Source of the DNA: Rhodocytophaga rosea
GTDB lineage: Bacteria > Bacteroidota > Bacteroidia > Cytophagales > 172606-1
Length of the DNA: 64,000 nucleotides
Reading direction: 5' to 3'
Assembly: GCF_010119975.1 (NCBI RefSeq)
Contig: NZ_CP048222.1
Span: 5,494,501 to 5,558,500, forward strand
Of the stretch, positions 10,216 through 26,395 are shown piece after piece (within the stretch, counting starts at the first letter, position 1; each line of letters starts with the position of its first letter). A model generated the notes under the pieces. That model saw only the letters and a program-made list of their open reading frames with translations. It had not been told where the DNA came from and made no database searches. Both the position numbers and the translations under genes were made by a program.

Positions 10216-12651
10216 TTACTCATTCCTCAAACTGATGACTGGGTTAGCTTTGGCAGCTTTTAATGAATGGAAAATTACTGCTAAAAAGGCAGTGGCTATC
10301 CCGATAAGTCCGGCTATGGCAAATAATTGCCAGGAAAGTGAAATCCGGTAGGCAAAATCCTGCAGCCATAAGTCCATTAGATAGGCGGAAAAAGGCACAG
10401 CAATCAGGAAAGAAAGCAGGGTTAGCCGAAGCATATCTTTGTTGAGTAGAACAAATATCTGTGAAACAGAAGCACCCATTACCTTTCGAATGCCTATTTC
10501 TTTGGTTCGGTTCAAGGCATGAATTCCGGATAAGGCGAACAAACCCAGGCACGACATAATAACGGCAAACACCGTAGCGATGCCCACAATACCTGTCCAA
10601 TTGCGGTAAGTAGTATATTGCTCTTTTAAATTTTCATCCAGAAAGGAGTATACAAAAGGCTGATCAGGAGCAAGCTTTTTCCAGGTTTTTTCTATTGCCT
10701 GTAAAGCTGTTGGAATACGTCCCTGTCGTAGTTTGGCCACTATATATGTAGGCCAGTCTTTACTGTAAGATAAAGCTAAGGGAGCAATTTTACTTTCTAG
10801 AGAAGCATAGTGATGATCCTGCATTACGCCAATAATCTTAGTTCCCATTAAGGTATTAATTACACCTGTACTATCCCTTCCTATCATGTTGGCTAAGGTC
10901 TCATTTACAATCATTCCTTCCTGATCTGTCTTACGATCTGGAGAAAAATTTCTGCCTTCTACCAGCTTAATTCCCAGAGTAGATAAATAATGTTCATCTA
11001 CTATAAAAATATCAACATTCGTCTGCTCATTATTAATTTCAAATCCCATAGAAAACACTTGTCTGGTAATAGTGGCTCCAGAACCACTTAGAGAGATTAT
11101 ATCCGGATTGGTATTTGCCCATTGCCTGAAGCGGTCTACCAGTTGAGCAGATTGATTTGTCGAAGCAAAATTCCTCACAATAAGCACTTGTTCTTTGTCA
11201 AAGCCTAAGTCTTTTTCGCTGATATAGCGCATCTGGCCATACATAATGAGCGAACTGCTTACCAGGAACAGACACATGCTGTATTGAACCAATAGCAAAA
11301 TTCTGGAAAACCAGGGATTGATCCGGTAGGTACGGGAACCTTTCAATATGTTTGCCGGCTGAAAATCGGATAATACCAGGGCAGGATAACCTCCGGCAAC
11401 TATACCCACCAGCAAGGCAATAAGCAGCAGTATACCTGCCAGTAGCGGTTCTTGCCACAAACTAAAATAGAGTTGCTTACCGGTAAATGCATTAAATGCA
11501 GGCAAAAACAGGTAAACCAGCCCAACTGCCATTAGCATGGCCATCCATACCAGAACCTGAGATTCCGCCCATAGTTGCCCGATCACTTGCTGTCGGCTGG
11601 CTCCCATCACTTTCCGGATACCAATTTCCCCTAATCTGGAGGCAGCGCTTGTAAGGGTAAGTGAAATATAATTGATACAAACTACAAAAAGAATGAGTAG
11701 GCCCAGGGCACTTAATATATAAGAATAAATAGGGTTATTTACTTTTGGCCAGATTACTCTGGTATCGAAATGCGTATCGGTTAAGGGTGTAACGCCCGCC
11801 TGCAGCACTTTTACGTGTTGGGGTACTTTTTCATGCTGGCGGTGCATATCGCTGAATGCAGCCAACCGTCGGTCTACAAAGGCTTGCATTTTGGCCAGGA
11901 AGGGCTTTACTGAAGCTTTAGGTGATAATAGCAGGAAAGTAGGAATGGAAAAATTACTATTCATCACATTTTTGTCTTGCTCATAATTGGCCATCTGCTC
12001 GATACGCAGCAACATGTTAAAACTGATGCTGGAATTTGCTGGTGCCTCTTTTGCAATGCCGCTTACAATAAAGCCCTTCTTCACATCCCGCTGTGTAAGA
12101 TATAAAGTCTTGCCCATCGGATTTTGCTTACCAAAATACTTGGCAGCCATTTTCTCTGTAATGGCGATGCTGGTTGGCGAAGCCAATACATTTTCTTTAC
12201 GGCCTTGTAGCAGTTCAAAAGAAAACACTTGAAAGAAATCAGCATCTGTATAGTGAACAGTTTCCTGAAAAGATTCTTTACCGTTGCTCACTACTGTCCC
12301 TATCTCTTTCAAGCGCACACATGTTTCTATTTCCGGTATTTCCCGTTTTAAAGCCGGACCAAAGGGTATAGAGAAATGAATCCAAGTACTGCTAACTTCT
12401 CCACTTTTGGGGTTAGTCAGACCGTTTTGTGCTTTTTTGTTCTTGGCCAGGTCAGGCAGGTTAATTAGTTCCAGGCGGTAGATGCGGTCGGCTTTTTCGT
12501 GGAAGCGGTCGAAAGAGTACTCCTCTTTGACAAACAGGAAAATGAGCATACAAAAAGCAATGCCGGTTGCCAGGCCAAAGATGTTAATACAGGAGAATAC
12601 TTTATTCCGCCGGATCATGCGCAGCGAGATGTTGAGATAGTTTTTGAACAT
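10216..12651 (-). CDS. MacB/FtsX-type ABC transporter permease, two-repeat form
   Basis: 811 residues, the usual size for Bacteroidota FtsX/MacB-PCD permeases. Starts MFKNYLNISLRMIRRNKVFS and has the first membrane segment at about 20-42, a periplasmic MacB_PCD domain, FtsX membrane segments near 310-450 with GEIGIRKVMGAS, then a second repeat whose C-terminal FtsX part holds TKEIGIRKVMGAS near 715. These proteins usually associate with a LolD-like ATPase and export small molecules or peptides, or act as mechanotransmission modules. No ATPase gene is adjacent. It lies behind the M56/BlaI pair on the same strand, but a strong hairpin separates them. Confidence 0.9.
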   Translation of the reverse strand: MFKNYLNISLRMIRRNKVFSCINIFGLATGIAFCMLIFLFVKEEYSFDRFHEKADRIYRLELINLPDLAKNKKAQNGLTNPKSGEVSSTWIHFSIPFGPALKREIPEIETCVRLKEIGTVVSNGKESFQETVHYTDADFFQVFSFELLQGRKENVLASPTSIAITEKMAAKYFGKQNPMGKTLYLTQRDVKKGFIVSGIAKEAPANSSISFNMLLRIEQMANYEQDKNVMNSNFSIPTFLLLSPKASVKPFLAKMQAFVDRRLAAFSDMHRQHEKVPQHVKVLQAGVTPLTDTHFDTRVIWPKVNNPIYSYILSALGLLILFVVCINYISLTLTSAASRLGEIGIRKVMGASRQQVIGQLWAESQVLVWMAMLMAVGLVYLFLPAFNAFTGKQLYFSLWQEPLLAGILLLIALLVGIVAGGYPALVLSDFQPANILKGSRTYRINPWFSRILLLVQYSMCLFLVSSSLIMYGQMRYISEKDLGFDKEQVLIVRNFASTNQSAQLVDRFRQWANTNPDIISLSGSGATITRQVFSMGFEINNEQTNVDIFIVDEHYLSTLGIKLVEGRNFSPDRKTDQEGMIVNETLANMIGRDSTGVINTLMGTKIIGVMQDHHYASLESKIAPLALSYSKDWPTYIVAKLRQGRIPTALQAIEKTWKKLAPDQPFVYSFLDENLKEQYTTYRNWTGIVGIATVFAVIMSCLGLFALSGIHALNRTKEIGIRKVMGASVSQIFVLLNKDMLRLTLLSFLIAVPFSAYLMDLWLQDFAYRISLSWQLFAIAGLIGIATAFLAVIFHSLKAAKANPVISLRNE

Positions 12652-12699
12652 GCTGGGTTAGGTTTAGGAGAACGATGGGAAGTAGCTGAAATAATTTAT

Positions 12700-12739
12700 A
12701 AAAAAATAGGGATACTTTTTAAAGTATCCCTATTTTTTT
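12700..12739 (-). terminator. Perfect 19-bp hairpin between the M56 gene and the FtsX permease
   Basis: Arms at 12700-12718 and 12721-12739 are exact reverse complements around a 2-nt loop, with A/T tracts at the outer ends. It starts 21 nt past the stop of the M56 gene and lies 48 nt before the permease start. Best read as the terminator of the BlaI-M56 unit; both outer tracts could serve as a U-run, one per strand. Confidence 0.8.
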
Positions 12740-12760
12740 ATTGACAATCAATCCGTTAAG

Positions 12761-14278
12761 CTACTTCTTCAACTTAAACTCTATGACTCCTTTTTTATCT
12801 TCTGCACCGAATTTTCTCAAAGAATTAATATCCTTATATACATTGATGCTTGCTATTTCCTCACCTTTGATCTTATTGAGCTGTGCCTTGTCTACTACCT
12901 TTCCATCTACCAGGTACAGAATCTTATGATCCGGGGAATCAGTAGAATCGCTCTTGATAACTATCTTCCGGCCTGTTATTCCGGTATTCCCATCAGGAAA
13001 AGCCGTAAGATTATGTGCATTGATCTGAACTTCTCCAGAGAGAGTTGCACGTGCAGATTTGGCAATAGGTGTGTCAGTTAATTTTAACAGCACAATCATA
13101 CCAGCCTGCGGGGTAATTGCCATTTCTGTGGTATTGAAATTTTCAAGCTGGAACACCAGTATTTTATCCTTTTCATTTACGTTTATGCTGAATTTGCCAC
13201 TTGCATCGGATTGCGTACTGGTAGCTTGCCCTTTCACCTGGATATGTACACCAGATAAAGGGGTATCCCTATCTGCATCTTTTATTATGCCTGTTACAGC
13301 CCTGACCTGAATGGAAGTAGATGGTGTAACAGGTTGCTCTGGCAGTATGATTTTGCGGCTTAAGGATAATATCTGGTTTTCGATTTTCTTAGCCTGGGTT
13401 CCATGAAAAAGCAGTATACAACCAGTTAGTACTGGAAGAACCAGCGCAAATTTCAGGCGGAAGGTGAGGGGAGAAGCTGATTTGTTCATCATACGAATGC
13501 GTTTTAAGAGTCCTGATTGATTAAAGTTATTAGTGATCATAAAATTCCTTTCCGGAAGTGTAAGCCTGAGTAAGTTTGACTGGTAATTTTCCACAGAAAA
13601 TCCTGTTTTCAATACAGATTGGTCAGCAATGTACTCCAGATTAAGTTTCACCAGATTTCGATGAAGCCAGGCAAAAGGATTAAACCAGAAAAAAATGGTA
13701 TACACTTCCGATAGTAATCTGTCTAGGGTATGATACCCGGCGATGTGTACCTGCTCATGCTGAATAATCTGCCAAAGGGCGTCTGACTCATACGGTTCGG
13801 GATTGAGGATGAGATACCGGAAAAATGAAAACGGGCTGTCGGTTTTCGTAGATGATGCCAGCACAAAAGGATATTGGCTGATTACATTGGCATTCCGGAT
13901 GAGTTTATACACCGAAAACAATTGAATGCCGAATCTGGCAAGTAAAAAGAGAACAACCGCTAAATAGAGTAAATAGGCTGTTTCCATCCAATAAGCGAAA
14001 TTATGTGTGGCCGGGGTGGCAGGTTGAGAATCTGCAAAAGCAAACCGGCTCACAGGAGCCGTATCCTGTGTTAAAGGCGTATAGTTAGTCTTTTCAAGAT
14101 TTAATTGTAATGGAGCAATATCCAGTAGAGGCAATCCAAGAGAAAGCGTCAAATTAGCCAGCAATACAAAACGTTTCAACTGGTGGAACGTGTCTTTGCG
14201 TAAGAACAGCCAGAATACCAGATACAGGCTGGCAAGCGTAATACTTGCTTTAATCAGATAAATTAGCAGAATACTCAT
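12761..14278 (-). CDS. BlaR1/MecR1-like M56 metallopeptidase with CarboxypepD-reg tail
   Basis: 505 residues. Four N-terminal membrane segments surround an M56 peptidase domain with the zinc motif HEQVH at 174-178 and a downstream NLEYIADQ glutamate near 215. A further membrane segment lies near 280-295. The outside part has no penicillin-binding domain; it carries a CarboxypepD-regulatory-like domain (VRAVTGIIKDADRDTPLSGV, about 325-405) and a short TonB-plug-like end (EEIASINVYKD, about 480). This architecture is widespread in Bacteroidota. Inferred role: an anti-repressor protease sensing an envelope signal. Its ATG overlaps the blaI stop by 4 nt. Confidence 0.9.
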   Translation of the reverse strand: MSILLIYLIKASITLASLYLVFWLFLRKDTFHQLKRFVLLANLTLSLGLPLLDIAPLQLNLEKTNYTPLTQDTAPVSRFAFADSQPATPATHNFAYWMETAYLLYLAVVLFLLARFGIQLFSVYKLIRNANVISQYPFVLASSTKTDSPFSFFRYLILNPEPYESDALWQIIQHEQVHIAGYHTLDRLLSEVYTIFFWFNPFAWLHRNLVKLNLEYIADQSVLKTGFSVENYQSNLLRLTLPERNFMITNNFNQSGLLKRIRMMNKSASPLTFRLKFALVLPVLTGCILLFHGTQAKKIENQILSLSRKIILPEQPVTPSTSIQVRAVTGIIKDADRDTPLSGVHIQVKGQATSTQSDASGKFSINVNEKDKILVFQLENFNTTEMAITPQAGMIVLLKLTDTPIAKSARATLSGEVQINAHNLTAFPDGNTGITGRKIVIKSDSTDSPDHKILYLVDGKVVDKAQLNKIKGEEIASINVYKDINSLRKFGAEDKKGVIEFKLKK

Positions 14279-14637
14279 TTTTTATTCTTATTAATAGCTT
14301 CAATAATTTCTTTCAATTCTGCTTCACTGATCTTCTCTTTTTCAGCAAAAAACGAAACCAGCTTTTTATAAGAATTATCAAAGTAGCTGGATAATATTTT
14401 TGAAATGAAGCCTTCCTGGTATTGTTCCCGGCTGATGAGCGGATAATATTCGTAGGTGGTGCCATAGGCCGTATAGCCAACATAGCCTTTTTCTTCCAGA
14501 TTCCGGATAATAGTAGAAATCGTATTGTAATGGGGTTTGGGATCAGGCAAGTGAGGAAATAAATCCTTGACAAAACCTTTTTTTACTTCCCATAAAATTT
14601 CCATTACCTGTTCTTCTTTAGGTGTAAGCTTTTCCAT
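14275..14637 (-). CDS. BlaI/MecI-family transcriptional repressor
   Basis: 120 residues, family length. Begins LTPKEEQVMEILWEVKKGFV and holds the winged-helix recognition segment HYNTISTIIRNLEEKGYVGY (about 36-55). The C-terminal half (about 75-120) matches the dimerisation region where BlaI is cut by its M56 partner. It is translationally coupled to the M56 gene. The near-perfect 42-bp inverted repeat just upstream (14648-14689) is the obvious autoregulatory operator. Confidence 0.93.
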   Translation of the reverse strand: MEKLTPKEEQVMEILWEVKKGFVKDLFPHLPDPKPHYNTISTIIRNLEEKGYVGYTAYGTTYEYYPLISREQYQEGFISKILSSYFDNSYKKLVSFFAEKEKISEAELKEIIEAINKNKK

Positions 14638-14647
14638 ACACCAAATG

Positions 14648-14689
14648 TAAACTATAAAATTTAGTTATGCAACTATATTTTATAGTTTA
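14648..14689. promoter_or_regulatory. Double BlaI-type operator upstream of the blaI-M56 operon
   Basis: Two 15-bp sites of form ACTA-N7-TAGT stand in tandem: ACTATAAAATTTAGT (14651-14665) and ACTATATTTTATAGT (14672-14686). Their centres are 21 bp apart, about two helical turns. Together they form a 42-bp palindrome around 14668.5 with 13-bp perfect outer arms (14648-14660 and 14677-14689) and only three mismatched pairs in all. The ACTA/TAGT half-sites resemble the TACTA/TAGTA half-sites known for staphylococcal BlaI/MecI. The element ends 11 nt before the blaI start. Confidence 0.8.
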
Positions 14690-14789
14690 TTAACGAAAAA
14701 TTTAGTTGTAAAGTTTGAAAGAAAGAATTAGCTGTCTGTTAGGGAATAAAACAGCAGGAATAGAATAATAGATGAGAATTTACCAGAAA

Positions 14790-16019
14790 TTAATTATTAA
14801 CCAGCGGATTAAGCTTATTATCGCCTCGCCATAAAGTAGTAGAAGGATGGAAAAATTTCCAGGAATGCCAGTATTCCTGATATGCCTGAATTTTGGTGAG
14901 TTGTTTGCCTGCAAAAGTTCCTTCTATACACTCGCCTGTATAGTTCCACAACGATTGAGTAGCAGTATCCCGAAGGCCGGAACGAGTAGAATCAAGCGTA
15001 AATACAAGCGTTTCGTTATTTACTTTGCGGTTCCACACATGAAAAGACAAACTATCTTTTTCGATCATTACTACTACCGGAACTTGCCCGATGGTATCAT
15101 TCACCAGTTGATGTTTCTGAAGTTGTTTCCAGTCGTAGGCTTTGGCTTTGCCCTGCATATCTACGCCTAATACCCAGCTTTTTCGGATCAATGTATCCGG
15201 GTTAAGGGTTGAATCCCTGTCTATGGGTTGTAATCGGTCGTAGCGCTTCAATCCATCATAGGATTCGGCATAGGTTGAATCTGGTTGTAGAACAAGAGAA
15301 TGTGGATATTTTTCAAGCCAGGAGCGCAAAGAAAGTTGCTCGGCGTTGATTTCCTGCAACATTTTTCCTTTCAAAGGACCCACTGCTGCTTCTCCGGTGG
15401 CCTGATACCACCAGGATTTTGTATCCGGATCTTCTATGACCGCATTGTAATGCCTGGCACCTACGAGCCGGAAAGCCTGGTATTTGCCATTAATGACTGG
15501 GCTATATACCCGTCCTGTGCGGCACATGGTACAATAAGTCACTAATACCGGAGTAGTTCCCACACTATCCTGTACTTTGTGATGATAGCCTAAATAATTT
15601 ACCGGATATGCTTTGGCTACATTGCCTTCTACCACACCAATTACTAGTAATGAATCCGGCACTATATTCTGTTTGGCATCAGAAAAACGGATGATTTCAG
15701 GTTCTTCAAACATCCGTTCAGCTTTATACATCCAGTCGGTGAAATATAATAGTCCCAGGCAAAACAGGAAAACACTTCCCCGGATGGTTTTTTGTTGCCA
15801 GTTTCCCTGGGTAAATGTTTTCCACAATGGCCAGGCTACCAGCATAAAACCAATAATGCGCGAGGGCAACACTATTTTCTCCAGATAGTATACAAACCAG
15901 ATGGCTTCCATATCCTGGCTGCCGGGGAAAGGCATCAACAGGTAAGCATGTATTAAAGCGGGAACAAGCAGCAGAAATATTCCCAGCCAGAAAACGATTG
16001 TCAAAACTCGGGTACTCAT
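14790..16019 (-). CDS. DUF3179 domain membrane protein
   Basis: 409 residues. Three or four N-terminal membrane segments (about 5-28, 40-62, 80-96) precede a large extracytoplasmic DUF3179 domain. The family hallmark is the CxxC box in VTYCTMCRTGRVY (about 160), followed by VGARHYNAVIEDPDTKSWW. The function of DUF3179 is unknown. Its ATG overlaps the stop of the preceding AhpD-like gene by 4 nt, so it is the last gene of the six-gene operon. The CxxC box, in an operon with three CxxC AhpD-like proteins, hints at shared redox or metal chemistry; that is inference. Confidence 0.85.
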   Translation of the reverse strand: MSTRVLTIVFWLGIFLLLVPALIHAYLLMPFPGSQDMEAIWFVYYLEKIVLPSRIIGFMLVAWPLWKTFTQGNWQQKTIRGSVFLFCLGLLYFTDWMYKAERMFEEPEIIRFSDAKQNIVPDSLLVIGVVEGNVAKAYPVNYLGYHHKVQDSVGTTPVLVTYCTMCRTGRVYSPVINGKYQAFRLVGARHYNAVIEDPDTKSWWYQATGEAAVGPLKGKMLQEINAEQLSLRSWLEKYPHSLVLQPDSTYAESYDGLKRYDRLQPIDRDSTLNPDTLIRKSWVLGVDMQGKAKAYDWKQLQKHQLVNDTIGQVPVVVMIEKDSLSFHVWNRKVNNETLVFTLDSTRSGLRDTATQSLWNYTGECIEGTFAGKQLTKIQAYQEYWHSWKFFHPSTTLWRGDNKLNPLVNN

Positions 16020-16570
16020 ACTTTTACTGGTGCCGAAGGTAATACATATCCTTTTTCTACCATCCGCTTGCCCATTTCTTCATAGGCTTCGGGTTCTGTT
16101 GGCGTAAAACTAGCCAGTCCATCTACATAGCGGTTAAACATACAAAAAGTAGCGGCTATCAGTACCGTATCATGAATCTCCTGGTCTGTGGCACCATATT
16201 GTCTGGCTAAAGCTACATCCTCGTCCGAAACAGAACGGGCATCCTGGGCGACTTTTCCGGCAATGGTGAGCAAAGATTTAAGCTTGTCAGAAATAGGTGC
16301 CGACTGGTAATCTTCCAGCACGAAATCTACCACTCCTTTTTCATCTTTAAACAAATAACGGGCAGCTGCTGCATGTGAACTCATGCAAAATACACATTCA
16401 TTCTGGGAAGAAACAAAGGTAGCAATGAGTTCCCGTTCTGCTTCTGAAAGGGTAGAAGGCCCACGCAATAAAGCGCCAGCCAGTTCGTACAGGTAGTGTC
16501 CGGTTTCAGGACGGAACAATACCAGACTGCGGATGCCTGGAACGCCTTGTAATACATTTATATGTGCCAT
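16016..16570 (-). CDS. AhpD-like carboxymuconolactone decarboxylase family protein (copy A)
   Basis: 184 residues from the ATG at 16570; an upstream ATG at 16600 would add 10 residues. The shorter start is preferred because copies B and C begin with the matching MPHI/MAHV and PGI blocks. Seen: CVFCMSSH, the CxxC-x3-H active-site layout of AhpD, then GATDQEIHDTVLIAATFCMFNRYVDGLASFTPT. Resembles the peroxidase-related CMD subgroup. The residue before the second Cys is Phe, where AhpD has a proton-relay His, so AhpD-type peroxidase activity is uncertain. The stop overlaps the DUF3179 start. Confidence 0.88.
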   Translation of the reverse strand: MAHINVLQGVPGIRSLVLFRPETGHYLYELAGALLRGPSTLSEAERELIATFVSSQNECVFCMSSHAAAARYLFKDEKGVVDFVLEDYQSAPISDKLKSLLTIAGKVAQDARSVSDEDVALARQYGATDQEIHDTVLIAATFCMFNRYVDGLASFTPTEPEAYEEMGKRMVEKGYVLPSAPVKV

Positions 16571-16648
16571 TGGAAAAGATTCAGGATTAAAAGATAACAA
16601 AATTATATACTTAAAATGCTTGCTTGCCTAAGTAAGCAGAGAAATCAC

Positions 16649-17908
16649 TTACCCATTTCCCTCCGATGCTGAAATTTTTACATCCTTTGCTACCCAAGTG
16701 ACTATAAAGCCGATAACAAAGGTGACCGAGAAAGCGAGTACAGCATTGCCATATCCTCCCAACACGGCTACCAGGGTTCCTACAAAGAAAACCACGGTTG
16801 CTGTAGCCAATCGCCCTAAATTAAAACAAAAACCGGTTGCTGTAGCCCGGATAAAGGTTGGAAATAATTGCGGTAAATACGCTGATAAAGTACCCTGGCT
16901 TATACCAAAAAACAAAGCTAGTAAAGCGGTTTCCAGGTAAATAATAGTGGAGAACACCGTATTGGTGGTAAACAGGATCAGACACATTACAAAGCTTCCG
17001 GCAAAGGTAATCAGCAGTGTTTTACGGTAGCCAATGGTATTAGACAAAAATCCGGAAATGGCTCCGCCAATAATGCCGCCGCTGCCTAAAAGCATCATGG
17101 TAATGCCTCTTTCCTGTTGCCCGGAGGTTTGAGAAGGAAACAGGCTTTGTATCCAGGTAGGCATCCAGGAAAAGATGGCCCATAATCCCACCAGCATAGC
17201 CCCGAAAATAAGCGAACCTATCCATACATTCTTGCGGTGCGCTGGCTCTAACAATAGACTGAAACTACTTGGTTTTGTTTGTAGCCTGGCTTGCGAACGC
17301 ATATTGGTCCATTGGGCAGATTCTTTCAGTACGAGACTGGCGATAATAGCCATCCCAAAGGGAATCCACCCTACAAAGAAAGCTTCCCGCCAGTTTGAAA
17401 CCAGATTATTAATTGCTCCGGCACTAATAATCCCGATGGGGAAGGCAATAGCCAATATGCCGAGTGCAATATTTTTAGTCTTAGCCGGCCATGTTTCCGA
17501 CACTAAAATGGTAGCCAGTACCAGTACTGCCCCCACTCCTATACCTGTTATAAACCGGCAAACAATTACCATTGCCCAGGAGGTAGAAAAGCCAGTAAGA
17601 ATGGTAAATACTGAATATAGTAATACAGCAGTAGTAAAAGCTTTCACCCGGCCTATACTATCCCCGGCAAAGCCAAATCCGATACCTCCCAGCATCCAGC
17701 CAAATAAATACACAGAACCAATATAGGCACCTACTCTGCCGAGTTCTGCTTCACTTACACCTCCCATCAGGTCTCTAACTACCACTGGTAAGTATACAGA
17801 CATTAACGTAGAAACCAGTCCGCCGCCTATATAGCAAATCAGGCAAACGGCAAATACTATCTGCCTGGAGAAAGTAGTTTTGGGGCTAACAACCGCAGTG
17901 ATCTGCAT
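16649..17908 (-). CDS. Major facilitator superfamily transporter
   Basis: 419 residues with about 12 membrane segments in two halves. Loop 2-3 carries GFAGDSIGRVKAF, a variant of the MFS motif A (GxxxDRxGR), and a related GFLSNTIGYRKTL lies in the second half. The CRFITGIGVGAVLVL segment resembles AAHS/sugar-porter carriers of small organic or aromatic acids. It sits between the TonB-receptor gene (52 nt upstream) and AhpD-like copy A (about 78 nt downstream), suggesting it carries the same substrate across the inner membrane. The substrate cannot be read. Confidence 0.88.
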   Translation of the reverse strand: MQITAVVSPKTTFSRQIVFAVCLICYIGGGLVSTLMSVYLPVVVRDLMGGVSEAELGRVGAYIGSVYLFGWMLGGIGFGFAGDSIGRVKAFTTAVLLYSVFTILTGFSTSWAMVIVCRFITGIGVGAVLVLATILVSETWPAKTKNIALGILAIAFPIGIISAGAINNLVSNWREAFFVGWIPFGMAIIASLVLKESAQWTNMRSQARLQTKPSSFSLLLEPAHRKNVWIGSLIFGAMLVGLWAIFSWMPTWIQSLFPSQTSGQQERGITMMLLGSGGIIGGAISGFLSNTIGYRKTLLITFAGSFVMCLILFTTNTVFSTIIYLETALLALFFGISQGTLSAYLPQLFPTFIRATATGFCFNLGRLATATVVFFVGTLVAVLGGYGNAVLAFSVTFVIGFIVTWVAKDVKISASEGNG

Positions 17909-17960
17909 ATAAAATAGAATTGAAATACTGAATAAATTTTAATAAAAATTCCTATCTGGC

Positions 17961-20735
17961 TTAGCGAAATAATTCATCGAAAGTGATGGATACATAATAC
18001 AGTCCGCCTACTGCCGGTGAACCATACGCCTGTACAATATATTGATTTGTCAAGTTGGAAGCGCCAAGCTTGAAAATGGATTTGATAGCCGGAACTTTGT
18101 AGCTGACCTGGGCATCCAGCATGTGGTAGGCCTGTATACGTCCTGGTTGCAGTTCATTAAAAGAACCTACCCAGTTGAAAGCATCCTGCCAGTGCCAGGC
18201 TACATTGAAGCCAACATTACCCAATACACTGGGATTGGAAATACTTAGATTGGTTTTGTAAGCAGGCGTATTAAATGCAGGGATATTGTTTGGATTGGCA
18301 TCTCTCAGGTTGAACTCCGTCCAGGTGGCATTTCCGCTGATAACAAAATTGGATGGCAAATAATAGGTTAATCCTAGTGTAGAACCTTGTACACTTACTT
18401 TATCTTTGGCATTCGTGTACAGCTGATAGGCTTGGCTTTTGCCATTCAATAATTCGGAAGCTGCCTGAGAATTAATACTTCCATCTGCATTTAATATCTG
18501 GCTCTGTGGCTGAATCACTACCTGGTTAAGGATAAAATCTGTATAGCTGCTGTAATAATAATTCAAATCTACTATCAGCTTTCTGCCCAGTAAACCTTTG
18601 TAGCCAATTTCGTAGCTTTCGATGCGTTCTGGTTTAATATAGGCCACATTTGATTTTTGCAGTAGACCTTTGTTTTTCTCAATTGCCTGAGGAGGTGGAG
18701 TACCAGCCCCTACATCAGCACCAAATGCACCGCCGAATGCGCCAACTGATGAAGCAGTAAACGTATTCTCATACACATTCATGCCTTTGCTGTTATTAGG
18801 AACGCCTCCTAAGATGGTAATGGGTCCGGCAAACAATTTGATATACTGGTCTACTGGCGTGGGATTGCGGAAACCAGATTGAAAAGAGGCCCGGAAGTTA
18901 TGGTTTTCTGTAGGAGAAAATACAGCTGATGCCCTGGGGGTAAATCTACCTTTGAAATTTTCGTTTTTGTCGTAGCGGCCAGAGGCGGTGAGTTTGAGTT
19001 TATTATCCAGTAGTTCTTTGGAAGCCTGCACAAAAGCACCATACTCATTGATTGTGATTCTCTCGTTTTTATCATCCAATAAAGTCCCATCTGTAAACAT
19101 ATCATACAGGCGGTAATTACCACCGACCAGTACATTTAGCACTTTGACTTGCTTGCTGAAGTCATACTGGCCTTCGGCATGATACAGTTTGCTGTTACTA
19201 AAGATACCGGCCCCAATCTGGCCGCCATAAATACCAGTTAATCTGTCTTTTTCCCGTTCGAACTCAGCAGTGCCAGGCTGAAAACGGCCTTCATCAGCAA
19301 ACCCACGGGCCGTCGAATGATTTTGAGCGGGTACATTGGAAATATTCCCGGTATACGCTGCTGTATAGCGCCCAAACCAGGTATCATCTGCTTTATCGGA
19401 AGAAACCACATTTCCGTCCAGATCTCTTACCCATGTTTTATTAATATGCTGACCAAGTGTACGGACATTATAGGAATCATGCGAATTTTCGATGGTTGTA
19501 TAAGCCCTTACAAAAAACTGGCTGCCCCGAAGTTCAACCCGGTGCTGTTGCAAGGTAAAATTATTGATAGAAAAACGGCTGCTGCCAGTATAATTAGCGG
19601 TACCCTGGCCAAAATTGTATTGATAAATCGCTTCCAGGTTACTGTTGATGCGGTAATGTAAAGCGCCGTTGAGTTTAAGGCTTTTCACCCGGTAATCTGC
19701 CAGGTATTTTTCCTCATAGCCGGTACGGGAAACCCTGCCAATGCCCGGAAGTGCTCTGGCTACTTCATCCCCATATATATTCATGGCATTTTTAGCTGGG
19801 TTCGATTCACCTCTTTGCTCAATGGGTGTCCTGGAATCTACATCTGTATAATTGGTGGCATTCCAGTCGAGGCCAGTCAGGTAAGAGGCATTGATTTTGA
19901 AAGCAAACCTATTGTTAATGGCTTTGGCATAACGCAGGGCTACATCATATACCGGCGAAGCATCGGTTGAAGGATCGCTTACATGATTGATACCCACTTT
20001 GGTCATGGCACTTAAGCCCTGAAACTGGAAAGGATCTTTGCTGCGCATCATCAATACACCGTTAAAGGCAACCGGGCCATACAGGGCAGAAGCTGCGCCG
20101 GGAATCAATTCTACGCTTTCTGCATCCAGGTCGGAAAGTCCGAATAAATTACCCACGGCAAAGTTGAGTCCGGGGGTCTGGTTATCTACGCCATCTACTA
20201 ATTGTAAAAAACGGCTGTTTCCAGTACCGGCAAAACCACGGGTATTGATGGCTTTATAGGTAAGCCCGCTGGTGACCATATCCAGCGATTTCATATGCTG
20301 CAAGCCATCGTAAAAATTAGCCGACGGTGTCTGTTGAATGCTGCGGATATCCATTTTTTCAATGCTTACCGGCGAGCGCATGATATTCTCTTCCACTCTG
20401 GAGGCGGAAATCACCACTTCCTGCATGAGGGTAGTTTGAGGAGAAAGAGAAATTGCTATACTCGTACTGGCGGCTGAAAGATCCACTTCCTGCCGTTCAT
20501 AGCCCACAGCTGATACAGTAAGCGTAAGAGGAAAAGATAGGTTAGTAGAAAGGCTGAATTCCCCTTTGTTGTCGGTTGTGGTACCAATGATGCTTCCTTT
20601 CACCCAGACATTAGCCCCAACCAGCCCCTGGCTGGAGGAACCATCTGTAATTTTTCCGGAAATCGTAGACTGGGCGTAAGTAAATCCGGAAAATAAAATC
20701 AACAGTAGAATTATGTAGTAGGAGAAATGTTTCAT
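17961..20735 (-). CDS. TonB-dependent outer-membrane receptor with CarboxypepD-reg domain
   Basis: 924 residues. Signal peptide ends at about residue 21 (FSGFTYAQ). A CarboxypepD-reg-like domain follows (TISGKITDGSSSQGLVGANV, about 23-105), then the plug (EVVISASRVEENIMRSPVSI, about 107; ALYGPVAFNGVLMM, about 223) and a 22-strand-type barrel ending in YYVSITFDELFR with the family's terminal aromatic region. There is no SusD-like partner, so it is not a SusCD glycan system. It is the third gene of the operon, 37 nt after AhpD-like copy B. The ligand is unknown. Confidence 0.93.
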   Translation of the reverse strand: MKHFSYYIILLLILFSGFTYAQSTISGKITDGSSSQGLVGANVWVKGSIIGTTTDNKGEFSLSTNLSFPLTLTVSAVGYERQEVDLSAASTSIAISLSPQTTLMQEVVISASRVEENIMRSPVSIEKMDIRSIQQTPSANFYDGLQHMKSLDMVTSGLTYKAINTRGFAGTGNSRFLQLVDGVDNQTPGLNFAVGNLFGLSDLDAESVELIPGAASALYGPVAFNGVLMMRSKDPFQFQGLSAMTKVGINHVSDPSTDASPVYDVALRYAKAINNRFAFKINASYLTGLDWNATNYTDVDSRTPIEQRGESNPAKNAMNIYGDEVARALPGIGRVSRTGYEEKYLADYRVKSLKLNGALHYRINSNLEAIYQYNFGQGTANYTGSSRFSINNFTLQQHRVELRGSQFFVRAYTTIENSHDSYNVRTLGQHINKTWVRDLDGNVVSSDKADDTWFGRYTAAYTGNISNVPAQNHSTARGFADEGRFQPGTAEFEREKDRLTGIYGGQIGAGIFSNSKLYHAEGQYDFSKQVKVLNVLVGGNYRLYDMFTDGTLLDDKNERITINEYGAFVQASKELLDNKLKLTASGRYDKNENFKGRFTPRASAVFSPTENHNFRASFQSGFRNPTPVDQYIKLFAGPITILGGVPNNSKGMNVYENTFTASSVGAFGGAFGADVGAGTPPPQAIEKNKGLLQKSNVAYIKPERIESYEIGYKGLLGRKLIVDLNYYYSSYTDFILNQVVIQPQSQILNADGSINSQAASELLNGKSQAYQLYTNAKDKVSVQGSTLGLTYYLPSNFVISGNATWTEFNLRDANPNNIPAFNTPAYKTNLSISNPSVLGNVGFNVAWHWQDAFNWVGSFNELQPGRIQAYHMLDAQVSYKVPAIKSIFKLGASNLTNQYIVQAYGSPAVGGLYYVSITFDELFR

Positions 20736-20772
20736 AAGAAATTAAGTAGCGATACACGTGATAAGAAAAAGT

Positions 20773-21336
20773 CTAAGAAGTTTTAAGATGATCATACCCC
20801 TGGGGCATCCGGGTATACCCATGGTGAACAATCCGGTCGCCCAGCCGCTGATAAAAAGCTGGATCTGTAGGCGTTACGCTGGCTAAGCCATCTACATATT
20901 TGTTATAGAGGCAAAACAGCGAAGCAATCAACACTGTATCATGAATTTCTATATCCGTAGCCCCGGCAGCTTTGGCCTGCTCAATAATACCGGTAGTCAC
21001 TTTTTTCCCAGACTGCTGGACAAGCCTTGCAATCTGGAGCAGTATTTTCATTTTCTCACTGACAGGTGCTTGCGAGGGATCATTTTTTACTGCTTCGCTG
21101 GTGGTATGGTCACCCAGCAGTAAATCGGCCGCTGCCGTATGGGCGGTTGTACAAAAGCGGCACTGGTTGCCGTGGGAAACGACTGTAGCAATCAGTTCGC
21201 GTTCGCCTTGGGTGAGGGTAGATTCTCCCCGCAATAAGATCTGGGTAAGATTCCGGATAGGCATCGCCGTATCGAGTCGGTATTCAAGTAAGCCGGTAAT
21301 GCCGGGCAAATGGTCAGGTAAAGGAATATGTGGCAT
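20773..21336 (-). CDS. AhpD-like carboxymuconolactone decarboxylase family protein (copy B)
   Basis: 187 residues. Same architecture as copies A and C: MPHIPLPDHLPGITGLLEYR start, GERELIATVVSHGNQ, the CRFCTTAH active-site box (about 73-80) and GATDIEIHDTVLIASLFCLYNKYVDGLASVTPT. Phe again precedes the second Cys. A paralogue, not a recent copy, since many positions differ. It lies 109 nt after copy C and 37 nt before the TonB-receptor gene. Confidence 0.88.
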   Translation of the reverse strand: MPHIPLPDHLPGITGLLEYRLDTAMPIRNLTQILLRGESTLTQGERELIATVVSHGNQCRFCTTAHTAAADLLLGDHTTSEAVKNDPSQAPVSEKMKILLQIARLVQQSGKKVTTGIIEQAKAAGATDIEIHDTVLIASLFCLYNKYVDGLASVTPTDPAFYQRLGDRIVHHGYTRMPQGYDHLKTS

Positions 21337-21445
21337 AATTTTGACAAAATGTTTCCTTGCTTTCCCAGCAGGGCTGGAAAAGGATTAAAATCAATGAATA
21401 TTAATGTAATTATAGCTGGTTGCGGAACTTGGGGAGGATGATCGA

Positions 21446-22000
21446 TTACATCGGTATAGGAACGGAATTTAAATATCCTTCTTCTGCCAGTCTCTTTCCA
21501 GCCTCTGCATACCGGTCTACCTGTTGAGGAGCAAAAGTGCCTAAGCCGTCTACGTAGCGGTTGAACATGCAAAAAGCAGCGGCGATTAATACCGTATCAT
21601 GGATCATATTGTCGGTAGCGCCTAAATTTCTGGCAGTTTCAATGTCTTCTGTCGTCACATTTCTGCCACTTTCTTTCACCTTACCTGCAATATTGAGCAG
21701 TGCCTGCATAACCGGCCTGATTTCCAGACCATCCGTTACACTGTCTCTGGTGACATCTATAAAGCGGGCAGGTTTTCCAAAATGAGATAAGGAAGCATTT
21801 AAATGAGTATTGGAGCAGAAAGTGCAGATATTCAGACGGGAAACATGCGCTGCAATGAGTTCCCGCTCAGCGGCAGATAAGCCTTCATTGGTTTGCAGAA
21901 GCACTTCGGCTACGCCATTCAAGGCTCTGGCCGTATGAGGCCACTGCATCATGAGTCCGACTATACCAGGCATGTTATTATTCAGGTGTACATGTGCCAT
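21446..22000 (-). CDS. AhpD-like carboxymuconolactone decarboxylase family protein (copy C), first gene of operon
   Basis: 184 residues. Start MAHVHLNNNMPGIVGLMMQW, then AERELIAAHVSRLNI, CTFCSNTH as the CxxC-x3-H box (about 77-84), and GATDNMIHDTVLIAAAFCMFNRYVDGLGTFAP. This is the promoter-proximal gene of the six-gene minus-strand unit, divergent from fumC across 263 bp. Members act in disulfide or peroxide chemistry or as decarboxylases; which applies here cannot be told from sequence. No good promoter match was found upstream (TATCTTTT near the start is a 7/8 match to the -7 element). Confidence 0.88.
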   Translation of the reverse strand: MAHVHLNNNMPGIVGLMMQWPHTARALNGVAEVLLQTNEGLSAAERELIAAHVSRLNICTFCSNTHLNASLSHFGKPARFIDVTRDSVTDGLEIRPVMQALLNIAGKVKESGRNVTTEDIETARNLGATDNMIHDTVLIAAAFCMFNRYVDGLGTFAPQQVDRYAEAGKRLAEEGYLNSVPIPM

Positions 22001-22263
22001 TACTAAAGATTTAGATTAAAAGGTGAAATAGTTTAATTTTTCAGGGATAAAAGATAGAAAGTAAAATTTTTTGATGCCCGGCAAATACTTCAATCTGCCC
22101 ATTTGTTATCTGAAAAAACGGTTTTATTGTTTGAATGTAAAGTTTATAATGAGAAGAGCTACCACCACCTGACGTTTGGTTTTTTAGGATTGCACTGCTT
22201 TTGCTGATTTCATTACTCATCCTCAACTTTTCTTTGTTAATTCGCAGACCAAAATTGAAGATT

Positions 22264-23658
22264 ATGGAATACCGCATAGAAAAAGACACGATGGGCGAGG
22301 TAAAAGTACCTGCCGACAAATATTGGGGTGCTCAAACCCAGCGTTCTAAAGAAAATTTTACCATTGGCGGACACCTGATGCCGGTGGAAATTATCCAGGC
22401 ATTTGCTATTCTGAAAAAAGCAGCGGCCAGAACCAACCAGGAACTAGGCGTATTACCTGCCGAAAAAGCAGATATTATTGCCCAGGTATGTGATGAAATC
22501 CTGGCCGGCAAACTCGATGACCAGTTTCCGCTGGTGGTATGGCAAACTGGTTCCGGTACACAATCCAATATGAATGTGAACGAGGTAGTGGCTAACCGGG
22601 CGCACGTACTGCTGGGTGGCAAATTATTGGATGACAAAAAGAAAATCCACCCAAACGATGATGTAAACAAATCGCAATCCTCGAATGATACTTTCCCTAC
22701 GGCGATGAGTATTGCTGCCTATAAACTGGTGGTGGAACATACCATTCCTATGGTGCAAAAGCTGCGTAATACCTTGCAGCAGAAATCTGAGGCATTTAAA
22801 GAAGTAGTAAAAATAGGCCGTACCCACTTTATGGATGCGACCCCCCTCACTTTAGGCCAGGAATTTTCAGGCTATGTAGCCCAGCTGGATCATGGCATAA
22901 AAGCCTTGCAGAATACCTTAGCTCATTTATCTGAACTTGCGCTGGGCGGAACAGCCGTAGGAACAGGACTGAATGCACCTAAAGGATATGCTGAACTGGT
23001 AGCGAAAAAAATCTCTGAATTTGCCGGACATTCTTTCAAAACGGCTCCGAATAAATTTGAATCCCTGGCTGCCCATGATGCTGCCGTGGCCACTTCTGGC
23101 GCTTTAAAAGGTTTAGCGGTAAGCCTGATGAAAATTGCCAACGACATCCGGATGCTTTCTTCCGGCCCAAGGTCTGGCATTGCCGAAATTCTGATTCCGG
23201 AAAATGAGCCTGGTTCTTCTATTATGCCCGGTAAAGTAAATCCAACCCAGGTAGAAGCCTTAACGATGGTGTGTGCCCAGGTAATTGGCAATGATGCAGC
23301 GATTACCATTGGCGGCATGAACGGCCATTTCGAACTGAATGTATTTAAACCAGTGATTATCTTTAACCTGCTGATGGCTGCCAGATTGATTGGCGATGCC
23401 TGTGATTCTTTCGATAAAAATTGTGCGATTGGTATTGATCCCAACTATCCGGTGATCGAGAAAAACCTGGAAAATTCACTGATGCTGGTTACCGCTCTTA
23501 ATCCGCATATTGGGTATGAAAATGCGGCTAAAATTGCCAAAAAAGCCCATAAAGAAGGCACCTCTCTGCGTCAGGCAGCACTGTCGCTCAATCTGCTCAC
23601 CAATGAACAATTCGACCAGTGGGTAATTGCCAAAGATATGATTGGAGAACTGAAATAG
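22264..23658 (+). CDS. fumC: Fumarate hydratase class II
   Basis: 464 residues from the ATG at 22264, close to the 467 of E. coli FumC. The frame is open upstream to 22201, but those 21 residues are hydrophobic and not family-like; homologues begin at [20 protein letters not shown]. Catalyses fumarate/malate interconversion in the TCA cycle. Seen: [14 protein letters not shown] (about 98), [12 protein letters not shown] (about 138), [17 protein letters not shown] (about 185) and [13 protein letters not shown] (about 317). A single-gene unit ending in a strong bidirectional hairpin. Confidence 0.97.
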
Positions 23659-23675
23659 GCAAGGATTCCAAAATA

Positions 23676-23709
23676 ACAAATGGTCGGGTTAGAATACCCG
23701 ACCATTTGT
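23676..23709. terminator. Bidirectional terminator between fumC and the Mn-catalase gene
   Basis: Perfect 14-bp stem (ACAAATGGTCGGGT at 23676-23689 and its complement at 23696-23709) with a 6-nt loop. It is 17 nt past the fumC stop and 24 nt past the stop of the convergent catalase gene, so it can serve both. Confidence 0.8.
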
Positions 23710-23733
23710 TTATATCAGAATAAACGTATTACC

Positions 23734-24635
23734 TTAAAACTTAATGCCCATTTTAGCGGCAGCAGCGGCAAACATATCCGGATCAATTCCATCTGACCCA
23801 GGTGCATTCAGTTGAGGTTCTTCCTCCAGGTCGGGAGCCGGAACGCCTTCGGGCGAGCCGAATATCACTTCAAGCGGCTGGCCATCTTCCGGATGCGGAC
23901 CATTGAATATACTTCCTACCTGCTGATAATCATTCTGGCTAAAGGTATATAATATCCGGTGTAAGCCACTGGATTCATATTTACGGGTTTCCGGAAAAGC
24001 TTTATTACTCAGATCTGGCACAGGTACCAGTTTGGTAACGGCCACACCAGTGAGTTGCTCCAGCGCACGGGCATAAGCCACTACGTGTACGCCGCCACGA
24101 ACCAGCAGATAGCCTACCATTTCACGGGCTGTTGGGTCTGTTACCATTTCATAGGCCCGCATTTTATTGGCTCTCGCAGCGCATTCCAGAAAGAAATTAT
24201 GTAACAGATCCAGTTTCAGGTTGCCACTGCTGAATACATTCTGCCCAGTCCACCAGTCACGCATCGAATCCATTGGAAAGGAAGCCTGGCCACTGGCAAT
24301 AAAATGGCGGGAATTACGGGCATCAGTGGCTTTTTTCAAAGGGCCAGGTTCAGGATCAAATCCACGTTTGGTCGTTCCGGTCAGCAGCAGATTGATTGCA
24401 TAAGAAACTACTTCAATGTGGCCGTATTCTTCGCCGGCAATACTGTATATCAGGTCATAGAAAGGACGCAAACGCTTTCTTCCTCTGAAATTAAACGACT
24501 GGTAGGTATAATTCATTAAGGTTGACATTTCGCCAAATTTACCACCCAGCATTCCTGGATAGCAGCGGCATCATTGGGAGAGGGATTGCTGGGTTGGGGC
24601 AGCTCAATAGGCAGCCGGTCCATACGTAAGATCAT
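23734..24635 (-). pseudogene. Manganese catalase with N-terminal 1-nt frameshift
   Basis: The main frame (24552-23734, 272 residues) is clearly Mn-catalase. All five expected ligands are present, numbered from the internal ATG at 24552: E8 (LGGKFGEM), E42 and H45 (GEEYGHIE), E123 (FLECAARANK) and H156 (VRGGVHVV). The family's N-terminus is found just upstream in another frame: from the ATG at 24635 it reads MILRMDRLPIELPQPSNP and ends NDAAAIQE. After QE the expected LLGGKFGE continues in a different frame, consistent with one missing base near 24550-24555. The upstream frame then stops within about ten codons. This may be a real disabling mutation, a sequencing error, or a gene starting at the internal ATG without its N-terminal arm. 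Confidence 0.8.
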
Positions 24636-24788
24636 ATTAAGGTAGTTTGAGTTTTATAAAATGAATAATTATTTCCTGCATAAAAGGCAAATACAAGTGA
24701 GAGTTGTTATAATAAGTTTATCAATTTTGCTAAAATAGAATTTTTCTAATAAAATTTTTTTAAAAGTTACAGCCTAATTCGCCATCTT

Positions 24789-25820
24789 TTAACGATTGTT
24801 CCTTGTTGTATTTTTCTTTCGGGCTTTTCGTTTTGCCTGTCGCCTGCGGTCTTCCTGTTCCTGCATCTCAAGTACCATAGCAAGTACTTCATCCATATCA
24901 ATTTCCATATGAGGTTCTGGCTGAAGTTCCCTGGCAAGCGATGCGGGCATGATCCCAGTCTTCAGGAAAGTTTGCAATCCATCACGCAAAGCAGTAAGTC
25001 CGTCGATAGCCTGGTCCATATCATGGGTCATATATTGGAGCATACCATCATTCTTTTTCATGTGTTTATGCATTTTTCCTGCCTCCGAGCGGTTAATATT
25101 AGCTGTTTCTTTTTTTGTACGCCGCAACTGGGCATCCAGCAGTTCTATGTCTGACATCAGGCGGTCTATCTGTTTCTGGAGTTGGTCAATCAGGGAAACA
25201 GAATCAGTTACTTCGGCATACTCACTAGTTAGGTACTGGGCTTCAATGGCAAGTAATGCGGCCATGTCTCCATTTTTGTAAGCTTCATTGATGCGTTGCA
25301 TGAGGATATGCAGTTCCTCAGATTCTTTATTGTTTCTGGCTTTATCCGGATGAAAACGAGTGGCCAGTTTCAAAAATAACTTGCGGATATTTTGTCCTTC
25401 AATGGGTGCCGGGCTTACGGCAAAGGCGGAGAAAAAATCTGCCGACCGGGCTTCCTGTTCTTCCCAGGTATTTTCTCCTTCAGAGGTTTCTTTTTGTTCG
25501 GCTGGTGATTCAGTATCCATATCTTTCGCCATCTGTTTAAGTATCTTTTTCTCCCGCTTGGTTAATAATCTGGATGTACTGGCATCGGTGAGCAATTTTT
25601 GCAGTTCTTGTTGCAATTGTTTTAAAACAAGCATTTTCGCCTGTATCACAGCAAAAGCCTGCCTTTGTATAGCAATCATGTCTTCTTTTAATTGCTGTAT
25701 CTTTGATTTTTCAGTTTCCAGTTTTTTTAATAATGCCTGATATTTTTTCTGCAGCGATTTTAACTCAGCTTCTTTTTCGGTAAGTACAGGATTGATGATC
25801 AGTTCTTTTTTTACAGACAT
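24789..25820 (-). CDS. Coiled-coil J-domain protein
   Basis: 343 residues. Residues 10-110 are a long Lys/Glu/Gln-rich coiled coil. A J-domain-like segment follows at about 146-190: IRKLFLKLATRFHPDKARNN with the diagnostic HPD, then LMQRINEAYKNGD. A second coiled coil (about 210-250) and a very basic tail (RRQAKRKARKK) complete it. There is no G/F region or zinc finger, so this is a class C J-protein that should recruit DnaK to a particular client. It is an isolated single gene. Confidence 0.8.
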   Translation of the reverse strand: MSVKKELIINPVLTEKEAELKSLQKKYQALLKKLETEKSKIQQLKEDMIAIQRQAFAVIQAKMLVLKQLQQELQKLLTDASTSRLLTKREKKILKQMAKDMDTESPAEQKETSEGENTWEEQEARSADFFSAFAVSPAPIEGQNIRKLFLKLATRFHPDKARNNKESEELHILMQRINEAYKNGDMAALLAIEAQYLTSEYAEVTDSVSLIDQLQKQIDRLMSDIELLDAQLRRTKKETANINRSEAGKMHKHMKKNDGMLQYMTHDMDQAIDGLTALRDGLQTFLKTGIMPASLARELQPEPHMEIDMDEVLAMVLEMQEQEDRRRQAKRKARKKNTTRNNR

Positions 25821-26395
25821 GCCAATAGATTTTGGTGGTTGATGAATGTAAATCTAATAAGAAAGTACAAACTAGTTTTTTTGCAGTGTATCTCAAGGCC
25901 AAAACATTGTTTTAAAATTAATAGCAGCGATTTTATTTTCTTTAATTGAATTATCCATTTCATTAGTCTTATTCATTCAATCTGATATAAAGCCTATTTG
26001 AAAAATTAAATATATCAATCTGTACGGATACCCGAATAATATATGTCCATAGGTTGATCTGAAAAAAATATTATATTTTAATGGGAAATGTCAAAATATT
26101 TACGTTAATTAATTTCCCGTTTCTCTTATTAAAAGAGGCTTGACTTATTTAAACCAGCCTTTAAAGTATAAATAATCTTAAGTTTATTCCCTTTTTTAAG
26201 CAACCATTAGCCCGTGGAAACTTTGTTATGTTAAAATTTTATAGCTGAAAATTTCATTTATAACTAACATAAAATTAAAATATTACAAAAGTGTATTTTG
26301 TAAATTATTGATTATGAATAATAAATAATTATAAACATGCAACTTTGCGTAGTAAAATGAAGTAAAAAACTCATGTCTAATCGATTATTACCGCT
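25821..26395. other. AT-rich divergent intergenic region, 575 bp
   Basis: Very AT-rich, with no coding frame that looks real. Apart from a weak 7-bp inverted repeat (GGGAAAT at 26083-26089, ATTTCCC at 26112-26118), no clear hairpin or consensus promoter was found. It separates the J-domain gene (minus) from a small acidic protein gene (plus) and must contain both promoters. Confidence 0.4.

Follow-up and report, generated by a model that had tools for sequence, protein, structure and literature searches.

Several described proteins resemble the three CMD/AhpD-like proteins encoded by a six-gene operon of Rhodocytophaga rosea, which also encodes a TonB-dependent receptor, an MFS carrier and a DUF3179 protein. 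The operon lies in a stretch of 64,000 nucleotides (nt) of contig NZ_CP048222.1 (positions 5,494,501 to 5,558,500 of the forward strand), called the window below. The genome is a single contig of 8.98 Mb. The TIGR01926 proteins (2prr, 3c1l, 2pfx, 2oyo, 6k40) are closest to the CMD proteins by sequence and by fold, and carry Glu, CxxC and His at the same places. AhpD of Mycobacterium tuberculosis (1gu9, 1knc) is a distant fold match to CMD_B, and its relay is Glu-Cys-His-Cys-His according to the available excerpts of PMC3141380. The same excerpts describe PA0269 as a weak Cys-dependent peroxidase with Tyr at the relay-His position and gamma-CMD proper as having neither CxxC nor relay residues. 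RclX of Pseudomonas aeruginosa, which has the CMD fold and a CxxC motif, is linked to hypohalous oxidants and protects against HOCl/HOSCN (accessible passages of PMC7950407). The tetrabromopyrrole debrominase Bmp8 has a CMD-family fold, with Cys82 in the title of its entry (6ohi/6ohj). In its accessible part, one review (PMC7918430) describes Bmp8 at one place as a CMD homologue that dehalogenates and at another as a decarboxylase. Selenoproteins are described in both families, as CxxU in AhpD-like proteins (TIGR01926 in one source) and as UxxC/T in DUF3179, in the portions at hand of PMC9312934 and PMC13188914. The accessible portions of the open-licence literature mentioning DUF3179 give no function for this family.

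In our best explanation, which is tentative, the operon is the copy in this genome of an import-and-redox locus that is conserved in Bacteroidota and whose one-Cys reductases would act on an imported organic acid in oxidised or halogenated form. The operon and the adjoining region comprise the following features:

21446-22000, minus strand: CMD_C, 184 amino acids (aa), a CMD/AhpD-like protein of group D, Pfam CMD match of 44 bits; codons of Cys59 at 21826-21824 and Cys62 at 21817-21815
20773-21336, minus strand: CMD_B, 187 aa, the CMD query for the searches; codons of Glu47 at 21198-21196, Cys59 at 21162-21160, Cys62 at 21153-21151 and His66 at 21141-21139
17961-20735, minus strand: TonB-dependent receptor, 924 aa, with a carboxypeptidase-like N domain (Pfam)
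16649-17908, minus strand: MFS carrier, 419 aa (Pfam, NCBIfam)
16016-16570, minus strand: CMD_A, 184 aa counted from the ATG at 16570; codons of Cys59 at 16396-16394 and Cys62 at 16387-16385
14790-16019, minus strand: DUF3179 protein, 409 aa, overlapping CMD_A by 4 nt; codons of His146 at 15584-15582, Cys163 at 15533-15531 and Cys166 at 15524-15522
22001-22263: intergenic region between CMD_C and the divergent fumC (ATG at 22264)

The preliminary description of this DNA had listed six minus-strand genes in the order CMD_C, CMD_B, TonB receptor, MFS, CMD_A and DUF3179. Reading of the open reading frames (ORFs) together with Pfam and NCBIfam confirmed this order, and the gaps of 109, 37, 52, 78 and -4 nt were found as given there on the DNA. 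For CMD_A the ORF list uses a TTG at 16600, and the ATG at 16570 agrees with the start of its relatives. Pfam detects CMD (PF02627) three times, DUF3179 (PF11376) with 195.2 bits (cut-off 27), the MFS carrier and the TonB receptor. The motifs noted earlier are present, C-x-F-C-x3-H and GATD..IHDTVLIA in all three CMD proteins and C163-x-x-C166 in the DUF3179 protein. Against TIGR01926, with a cut-off of 81.8 bits, CMD_A scores above it (92.6) and CMD_B (79.1) and CMD_C (74.8) below. No signal peptide was seen by eye in the CMD proteins. The region 22001-22263 is the likely promoter region. Promoter-like (17 vs 16.4) and terminator-like sites (8 vs 8.7) are as frequent as in shuffled sequences and therefore speak neither for nor against co-transcription. 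A search for an RNA leader gave no Rfam match at gathering scores within positions 12000-26000 of the window.

For analysis of the conservation, one genome each of 84,980 species was scanned with a CMD_B alignment, and the best 80 of at least 564 relatives (597 stretches) were kept. They come from 44 groups, that is, genera or single unplaced genomes assigned from record names, all of them Bacteroidota lineages. The genera presumably belong to the orders Cytophagales, Sphingobacteriales, Chitinophagales and Flavobacteriales. Two loci (L122, L165) were left out because CMD_B was not retained by longest-ORF gene picking. Among the remaining 78 runs, 24 touch a contig or locus end and 54 are uncut, and some loci represent one genome twice (L048/L086, L052/L152). 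The same-strand run around CMD_B holds an MFS gene of the same family in 71/78 loci and a gene for a small leader membrane protein (cl4) in 59/78. A TonB receptor is present in 48/78 runs, SusC takes its place in 9/78 and neither occurs in 21/78. DUF3179 lies inside the run in 31/78 loci, a vanadium haloperoxidase-like (VHPO-like) protein in 15/78, a FecA-like receptor in 13/78, a CRTAC (FG-GAP/UnbV) protein in 10/78 and a MetE-like protein in 9/78. The spacing is tight between TonB receptor and MFS (median 4.5 nt, 41/42 at most 50 nt), CMD and MFS (median 2 nt, 22/23 at most 50 nt) and neighbouring CMD genes (22 nt, 46/62 at most 50 nt), and wider between cl4 and CMD (184 nt) and between MFS and DUF3179 (87 nt). 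The search across Bacteroidota proposed in the preliminary description thus finds the set conserved far beyond the genome of the window. It also reveals three features overlooked there: the haloperoxidase-like link, the cl4 leader in other genomes and the exchange of the TonB receptor for SusCD.

Within the order of R. rosea, orthologues of the TonB receptor (59-73%) were found in nine other genomes in a search of 148 genomes, and CMD_B, TonB receptor and MFS are adjacent in all nine. With nine other genomes sharing this arrangement and 44 groups containing related loci, it is more than chance. Minimal forms consist of CMD_B and DUF3179 alone (L130, L151, L159, L185), and one locus of another class (L166) is a single tight run of MFS, four CMD genes, TonB receptor, CRTAC and VHPO-like gene. 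A CMD of this kind was detected at E 1e-40 or better in 21 of 296 genomes of the phylum, eight of which have two to four in tandem. In six loci of one other family (L172, L175, L177-L180) a lone CMD of this kind lies among different genes, so not every CMD relative belongs to such a block. In these loci, from a class outside that of the window, the CMD is adjacent to large genes of a single cluster, one or two per locus, which by eye resemble class-III aminotransferases. The genome of the window has a second locus (L046) with a CMD, a TonB-SusD open frame, DUF3179 and an M28 peptidase in a row, which again places CMD and DUF3179 around an outer-membrane importer. The open frame there (L046:7464-11711, at about 122-127 kb) joins SusC and SusD in 1415 aa. 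As the lipobox of SusD falls within this uninterrupted frame, the fusion may result from an assembly error or from the loss of a stop codon.

The three CMD genes represent old paralogues. CMD_A, CMD_B and the remaining CMD proteins split apart on a tree of 27 proteins, in which CMD_C of the window joins group D on a long branch. On a tree of 240 proteins, the three groups A, B and D (labels given by best blast match to seeds) need only two changes, which argues for three old paralogue groups. They are mostly kept together, in support of the preliminary description: at least two CMD genes occur in 39/50 complete MFS-bearing runs, the other 11 holding CMD_B alone. In the whole fetched loci, each of the 50 has one CMD_B, which follows partly by construction because the loci were selected by likeness to CMD_B, and 47/50 have at least one A or D paralogue.

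Conserved residues were counted in 235 distinct CMD proteins. Glu47, His66, His132, Asn145 and Gly150 are invariant (235/235), and Cys62, Asp133, Tyr147 and Asp149 are each present in 234/235. Position 59 is Cys in 207, Thr in 27 and Ser in one, so that the Cys motif reads CxxC in 207, CxxxC in 15, a single Cys in 12 and none in one. On a FastTree tree computed with the motif columns omitted, the state of Cys59 changes at least five times (three in A, one in B, one in D). Among the proteins compared, the constraint on the CMD family thus falls on Cys62, Glu47 and His66, and not on CxxC. The preliminary description had proposed an uptake pathway followed by processing through a set of CxxC enzymes. 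The idea of uptake and processing is partly supported, by the conserved and tight coupling of transporter and CMD genes. That of a CxxC set is not supported, since Cys59 is lost or shifted in 28/235 CMD proteins and 10 of 43 DUF3179 members have Thr or Ser in place of the second Cys. The residue replaced by selenocysteine (Sec) in selenoproteins is the kept Cys in both families, and a one-chalcogen redox reaction would be the simplest reading of this. It suggests that both should be treated as one-Cys and not as dithiol redox enzymes.

The Glu-Cys-Cys-His residues of the AhpD relay are present in the CMD proteins of the window. However, the relay His132 of AhpD, which is not the invariant His132 of this CMD group, is replaced by Phe or Tyr in 232/235, and the five-residue relay is incomplete. 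The Phe described earlier at this position does occur in all three CMD proteins of the window, but it is not distinctive, as Phe (212/235) and Tyr (20/235) are usual. The CMD proteins also differ from AhpD in the dispensable first Cys and in having no recognised AhpC-like neighbour, and from the solved TIGR01926 proteins in the Phe before the second Cys, where those have Tyr. The AlphaFold2 model of CMD_B (pLDDT 94.8) is nearest to TIGR01926 structures in a structure search, followed by other AhpD-like proteins, PA0269, Bmp8, sestrin and RclX.

The model of the DUF3179 protein (pLDDT 88.3, pTM 0.85) consists of three long N-terminal helices and two similar beta domains. These halves are a duplication according to profile-profile comparison (98.6%, E 7e-15 for the cluster set; 99.5%, E 2e-22 for a wider set), and only the first carries the Cys motif. 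Among 43 members, a few of which are from the same or sister genomes, Cys163, His146 and Asp151 are present in all 43 and position 166 is Cys in 33, Thr in eight and Ser in two. There is no Lys or Arg between helices 1 and 2 and one in the short stretch between helices 2 and 3. With so few positive charges in the links and the N-terminus inside, the catalytic domain would perhaps be periplasmic. Within the DUF3179 (PF11376) family, the subfamily of the window carries YHH, CxxC and His190. It is called window-type here and defined, after the comparisons, by more than 400 bits to the locus cluster.

In its predicted fold, the protein appears to resemble Rieske proteins. In a Foldseek search against the Protein Data Bank (PDB), all 27 of the top 50 matches with a probability above 0.5 are Rieske proteins, some of them identified by chain. 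Several Rieske chains reach probabilities of 0.99-1.00 with E 0.02-0.1, and none of the matches reaches E 0.001. With an E-value of 0.018, two unrelated microtubule chains rank best, at a probability of 0.06. We take the ligand set of Rieske [2Fe-2S] domains to be C-x-H ... C-x-x-H, a set absent from DUF3179, which has YHH at 145-147 and C-x-x-C at 163-166. Read from the sequences, not superposed, His146/147 would lie near the box-1 His, and Cys163 and Cys166 at the box-2 Cys and His. In hhalign, DUF3179 against 24 Rieske domains of the order (from 30 loci) gave 0.08% with the narrow and 0.67% with the wider alignment, compared to 0.41% and 0.64% for unrelated controls. As the Rieske profile scores no better than these controls, we claim a resemblance of fold and not homology. 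A PDB sequence search with DUF3179 gave no convincing match, and no open-licence literature was found for DUF3179 together with Rieske. The DUF3179 model is also matched by a 236-aa protein of the giant virus Indivirus ILV1 (BFVD A0A1V0SD44; Foldseek E 1.1e-6, probability 1.00). One protein cluster adjoins DUF3179 or sits one gene off in L079, L080, L082-L085 and L046, with two DUF3179 subfamilies; its member in L046 is the M28 peptidase (Pfam).

A further partner is the neighbour protein c5, by eye a lipoprotein, which lies outside the operon of the window. Its best solved match is 4cit (E 5.6e-11), which we take to be the vanadium haloperoxidase of Zobellia; acid phosphatases follow at 7.5e-5. 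The motifs that we assume for vanadium haloperoxidases, KX6RP, SGH and SRX5H, are all present in 17/21 members of the c5 cluster. This VHPO-like gene occurs in 18/80 loci from 11 groups. In the 148 genomes of the order, CMD_B (threshold E 1e-75) was found in 12, window-type DUF3179 in 17 and the VHPO-like protein (E 1e-80) in 30. Window-type DUF3179 is present in 12/12 CMD_B genomes vs 5/136 others. DUF3179, which the preliminary description had treated as an operon member, is not fixed in the run, but every CMD_B carrier among these genomes of the order has it in its genome. The VHPO-like protein is present in 16/17 genomes with window-type DUF3179 vs 14/131 others, and in 11/12 CMD_B genomes vs 19/136 others. 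It was found in 0/15 genomes with other DUF3179 types only, a number that includes three genomes classified in a late check (G011, G044, G142; 67, 91 and 100 bits). In this order, window-type DUF3179 is therefore the only kind of DUF3179 that co-occurs with the VHPO-like protein.

Within four families, for which 37 genomes are listed, CMD_B still goes with window-type DUF3179 (12/12 vs 5/25), and the latter with the VHPO-like protein (16/17 vs 7/20). The same was observed by genus, a genus being scored positive if any of its genomes carries the gene: CMD_B with window-type DUF3179 in 8/8 vs 2/72, window-type DUF3179 with the VHPO-like protein in 10/10 vs 10/70 and CMD_B with the VHPO-like protein in 8/8 vs 12/72. 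Occurrence is nested, from VHPO-like protein to DUF3179 to CMD_B, with a single exception (G143). The co-occurrence is kept at a distance in one genome (G029), with DUF3179 at 2.39 Mb, the VHPO-like gene at 5.44 Mb and CMD_B at 5.56 Mb. In another (G040), the pair of VHPO-like and porin-like genes follows a cl4 leader, and the same kind of leader precedes CMD_B. The genome of the window has its VHPO-like gene beside a porin-like partner at 1.24 Mb. It holds about ten PAP2/haloperoxidase-like genes (twelve matches), one of which (53%) is of the c5 kind.

Based on the observed conservation, gene order, co-occurrence and residues, we suggest the following substrate, direction, reaction and compartments. 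The TonB receptor, or SusCD in other genomes, would import an organic anion, probably aromatic, to the periplasm, and the MFS carrier would move it into the cytoplasm. The carrier is nearest to TIGR00895 (aromatic acid/H+ symport), the best of 25 families listed, with 158.5 bits vs a cut-off of 418.55, and its best solved relatives are the SLC22A6 organic-anion carriers. The CMD paralogues would then act through one thiolate, Cys62, held by the conserved Glu47 and His66. Cys59, where present, could form an intramolecular disulfide with Cys62; in proteins with Thr at this position, the disulfide step requires an external thiol. The simplest common reaction would be the reductive loss of an oxygen or halogen added by an oxidant. 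A related one-Cys reaction, with Cys163 and His146, may be carried out in the periplasm by DUF3179, presumably anchored in the inner membrane. The haloperoxidase-like module, which co-occurs and in some genomes is part of the locus, could supply the oxidised substrate or provide its context.

Several observations weigh against this proposal. DUF3179 is missing from 47/78 runs, and in two related genomes it stands by eye with apparent sugar-catabolism genes (L070:7058-16998, L072:315-11369); these two loci also hold a PAP2 protein and an FG-GAP-like protein. No thioredoxin, AhpF or peroxiredoxin was recognised in the 17 recurrent neighbour clusters, for 14 of which families were seen; most neighbours are without annotation. 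Bmp8 matches CMD_B by fold only, at 15% identity and ranks 32-34, and was not among the profile-search matches at E up to 10. Because part of the motif is missing in 4/21 of the VHPO-like proteins, and SGH in that of L166, these proteins may be phosphatases. One CMD_B genome (G143) gave no VHPO-like match at the threshold used (E 1e-80), and in the genome of the window the VHPO-like gene lies 4.3 Mb from the operon. The link between CMD_B and the VHPO-like protein is weaker within the four families (11/12 vs 12/25, P 0.011). Co-occurrence partly follows phylogeny, and the statistics ignore genome size.

It is rather unlikely that the locus is catabolic and non-redox, with CMD proteins that decarboxylate, isomerise or hydrolyse an imported aromatic- or lactone-type acid. 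Glu47, His66, His132 and Asp133 would then be acid-base groups, and Cys62 a structural residue or a covalent nucleophile. The uptake genes (TonB receptor or SusCD, and an MFS carrier nearest to aromatic-acid symporters) look nutritional, Cys59 is dispensable and a short-chain dehydrogenase cluster occurs in six of 80 loci. His132 fits this explanation as well: it is invariant, yet Trp (three times), Met and Leu stand at this position in the five nearest solved proteins, so that in the proteins compared it marks this CMD group and the active site departs from that of AhpD. However, no ring-cleavage or CoA-ligase gene was recognised in the 17 recurrent clusters, the rarer neighbours being unannotated. 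Cys62 and His66 are kept, unlike in gamma-CMD proper as excerpted from PMC3141380, and selenoprotein members in both families, as described in the portions of the sources at hand, point to redox chemistry.

Simple defence against oxidants is an unlikely function. Here the CMD proteins would be thiol peroxidases like RclX or AhpD that act on hypohalous acids or peroxides, with the transporters as passengers or for antioxidant uptake. RclX and PA0269 are precedents in the accessible parts of PMC7950407 and PMC3141380, and the haloperoxidase-like link is consistent with such a role, the usual product of such an enzyme being hypohalous acid. RclX is a weak sequence match (7y4r, E 0.076); it differs in its length of 112 aa in the solved chain and in its single-gene operon under RclR, without transporters. 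Against a role in defence, three paralogue groups seem more than a detoxifier needs, and the first Cys changed at least five times. An MFS gene present in 71/78 runs with gaps near zero is too tightly linked for a passenger.

An organohalogen system in the narrow sense seems improbable. The VHPO-like protein, as a vanadium haloperoxidase at the surface or in the periplasm, would make, or share a niche with, halogenated aromatic acids, which would be imported by TonB receptor or SusCD and MFS carrier and dehalogenated by a Bmp8-like thiol reaction of the CMD proteins. The matching step in the periplasm would fall to DUF3179, as a Rieske-like fold that is anchored in the membrane and has Cys (or Sec) where the cluster would be. 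For thiol dehalogenation after Bmp8, the fold and the haloperoxidase link are what argues, and Bmp8 differs in that it lies in a biosynthetic gene cluster. Six unrelated genes that happen to share one strand can hardly explain the locus: although gene order varies and neither DUF3179 nor cl4 is always present, there are related loci with near-zero gaps in 44 groups and in other classes of the phylum, and the genome-level co-occurrence holds even with DUF3179 megabases from CMD_B (G029).

The preliminary description knew of no described pathway with this gene set, and none was found among the open-licence literature matches listed. No open-licence literature was found for haloperoxidase with TonB and Bacteroidetes, or for pairs of haloperoxidase, VCBS and SusD. 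The conserved block of import genes, CMD and DUF3179 with a haloperoxidase-like partner may point to a pathway, not yet described, that handles organic compounds in oxidised or halogenated form. The function of the DUF3179 family is listed as unknown, and many AhpD-like CMD proteins have no assigned role; the locus links both to transporters and to the haloperoxidase-like partner and thereby offers a route to the substrate via an uptake system that can be assayed. If the halogen-based explanation is true, it would add a bacterial route for organohalogen turnover.

Among other neighbours, the cl4 family (about 185 aa) stands first in the CMD locus as well as in the VHPO module, for example at L086:9204-9779, L217:11682-12230 and L218:15280-15819. 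The cl4 members tried had no Pfam or NCBIfam match over the cut-off, and one query did not find cl4 in the genome of the window. The recurrent clusters also include a LuxR-type response regulator in seven loci. A DUF2490 protein (c15) precedes cl4 and the VHPO module in L108 (1109-1891) and six other loci. In the window, a pair of penicillinase-repressor and BlaR1-like (M56) genes at 12761-14637 follows on the same strand, 152 nt downstream of DUF3179.

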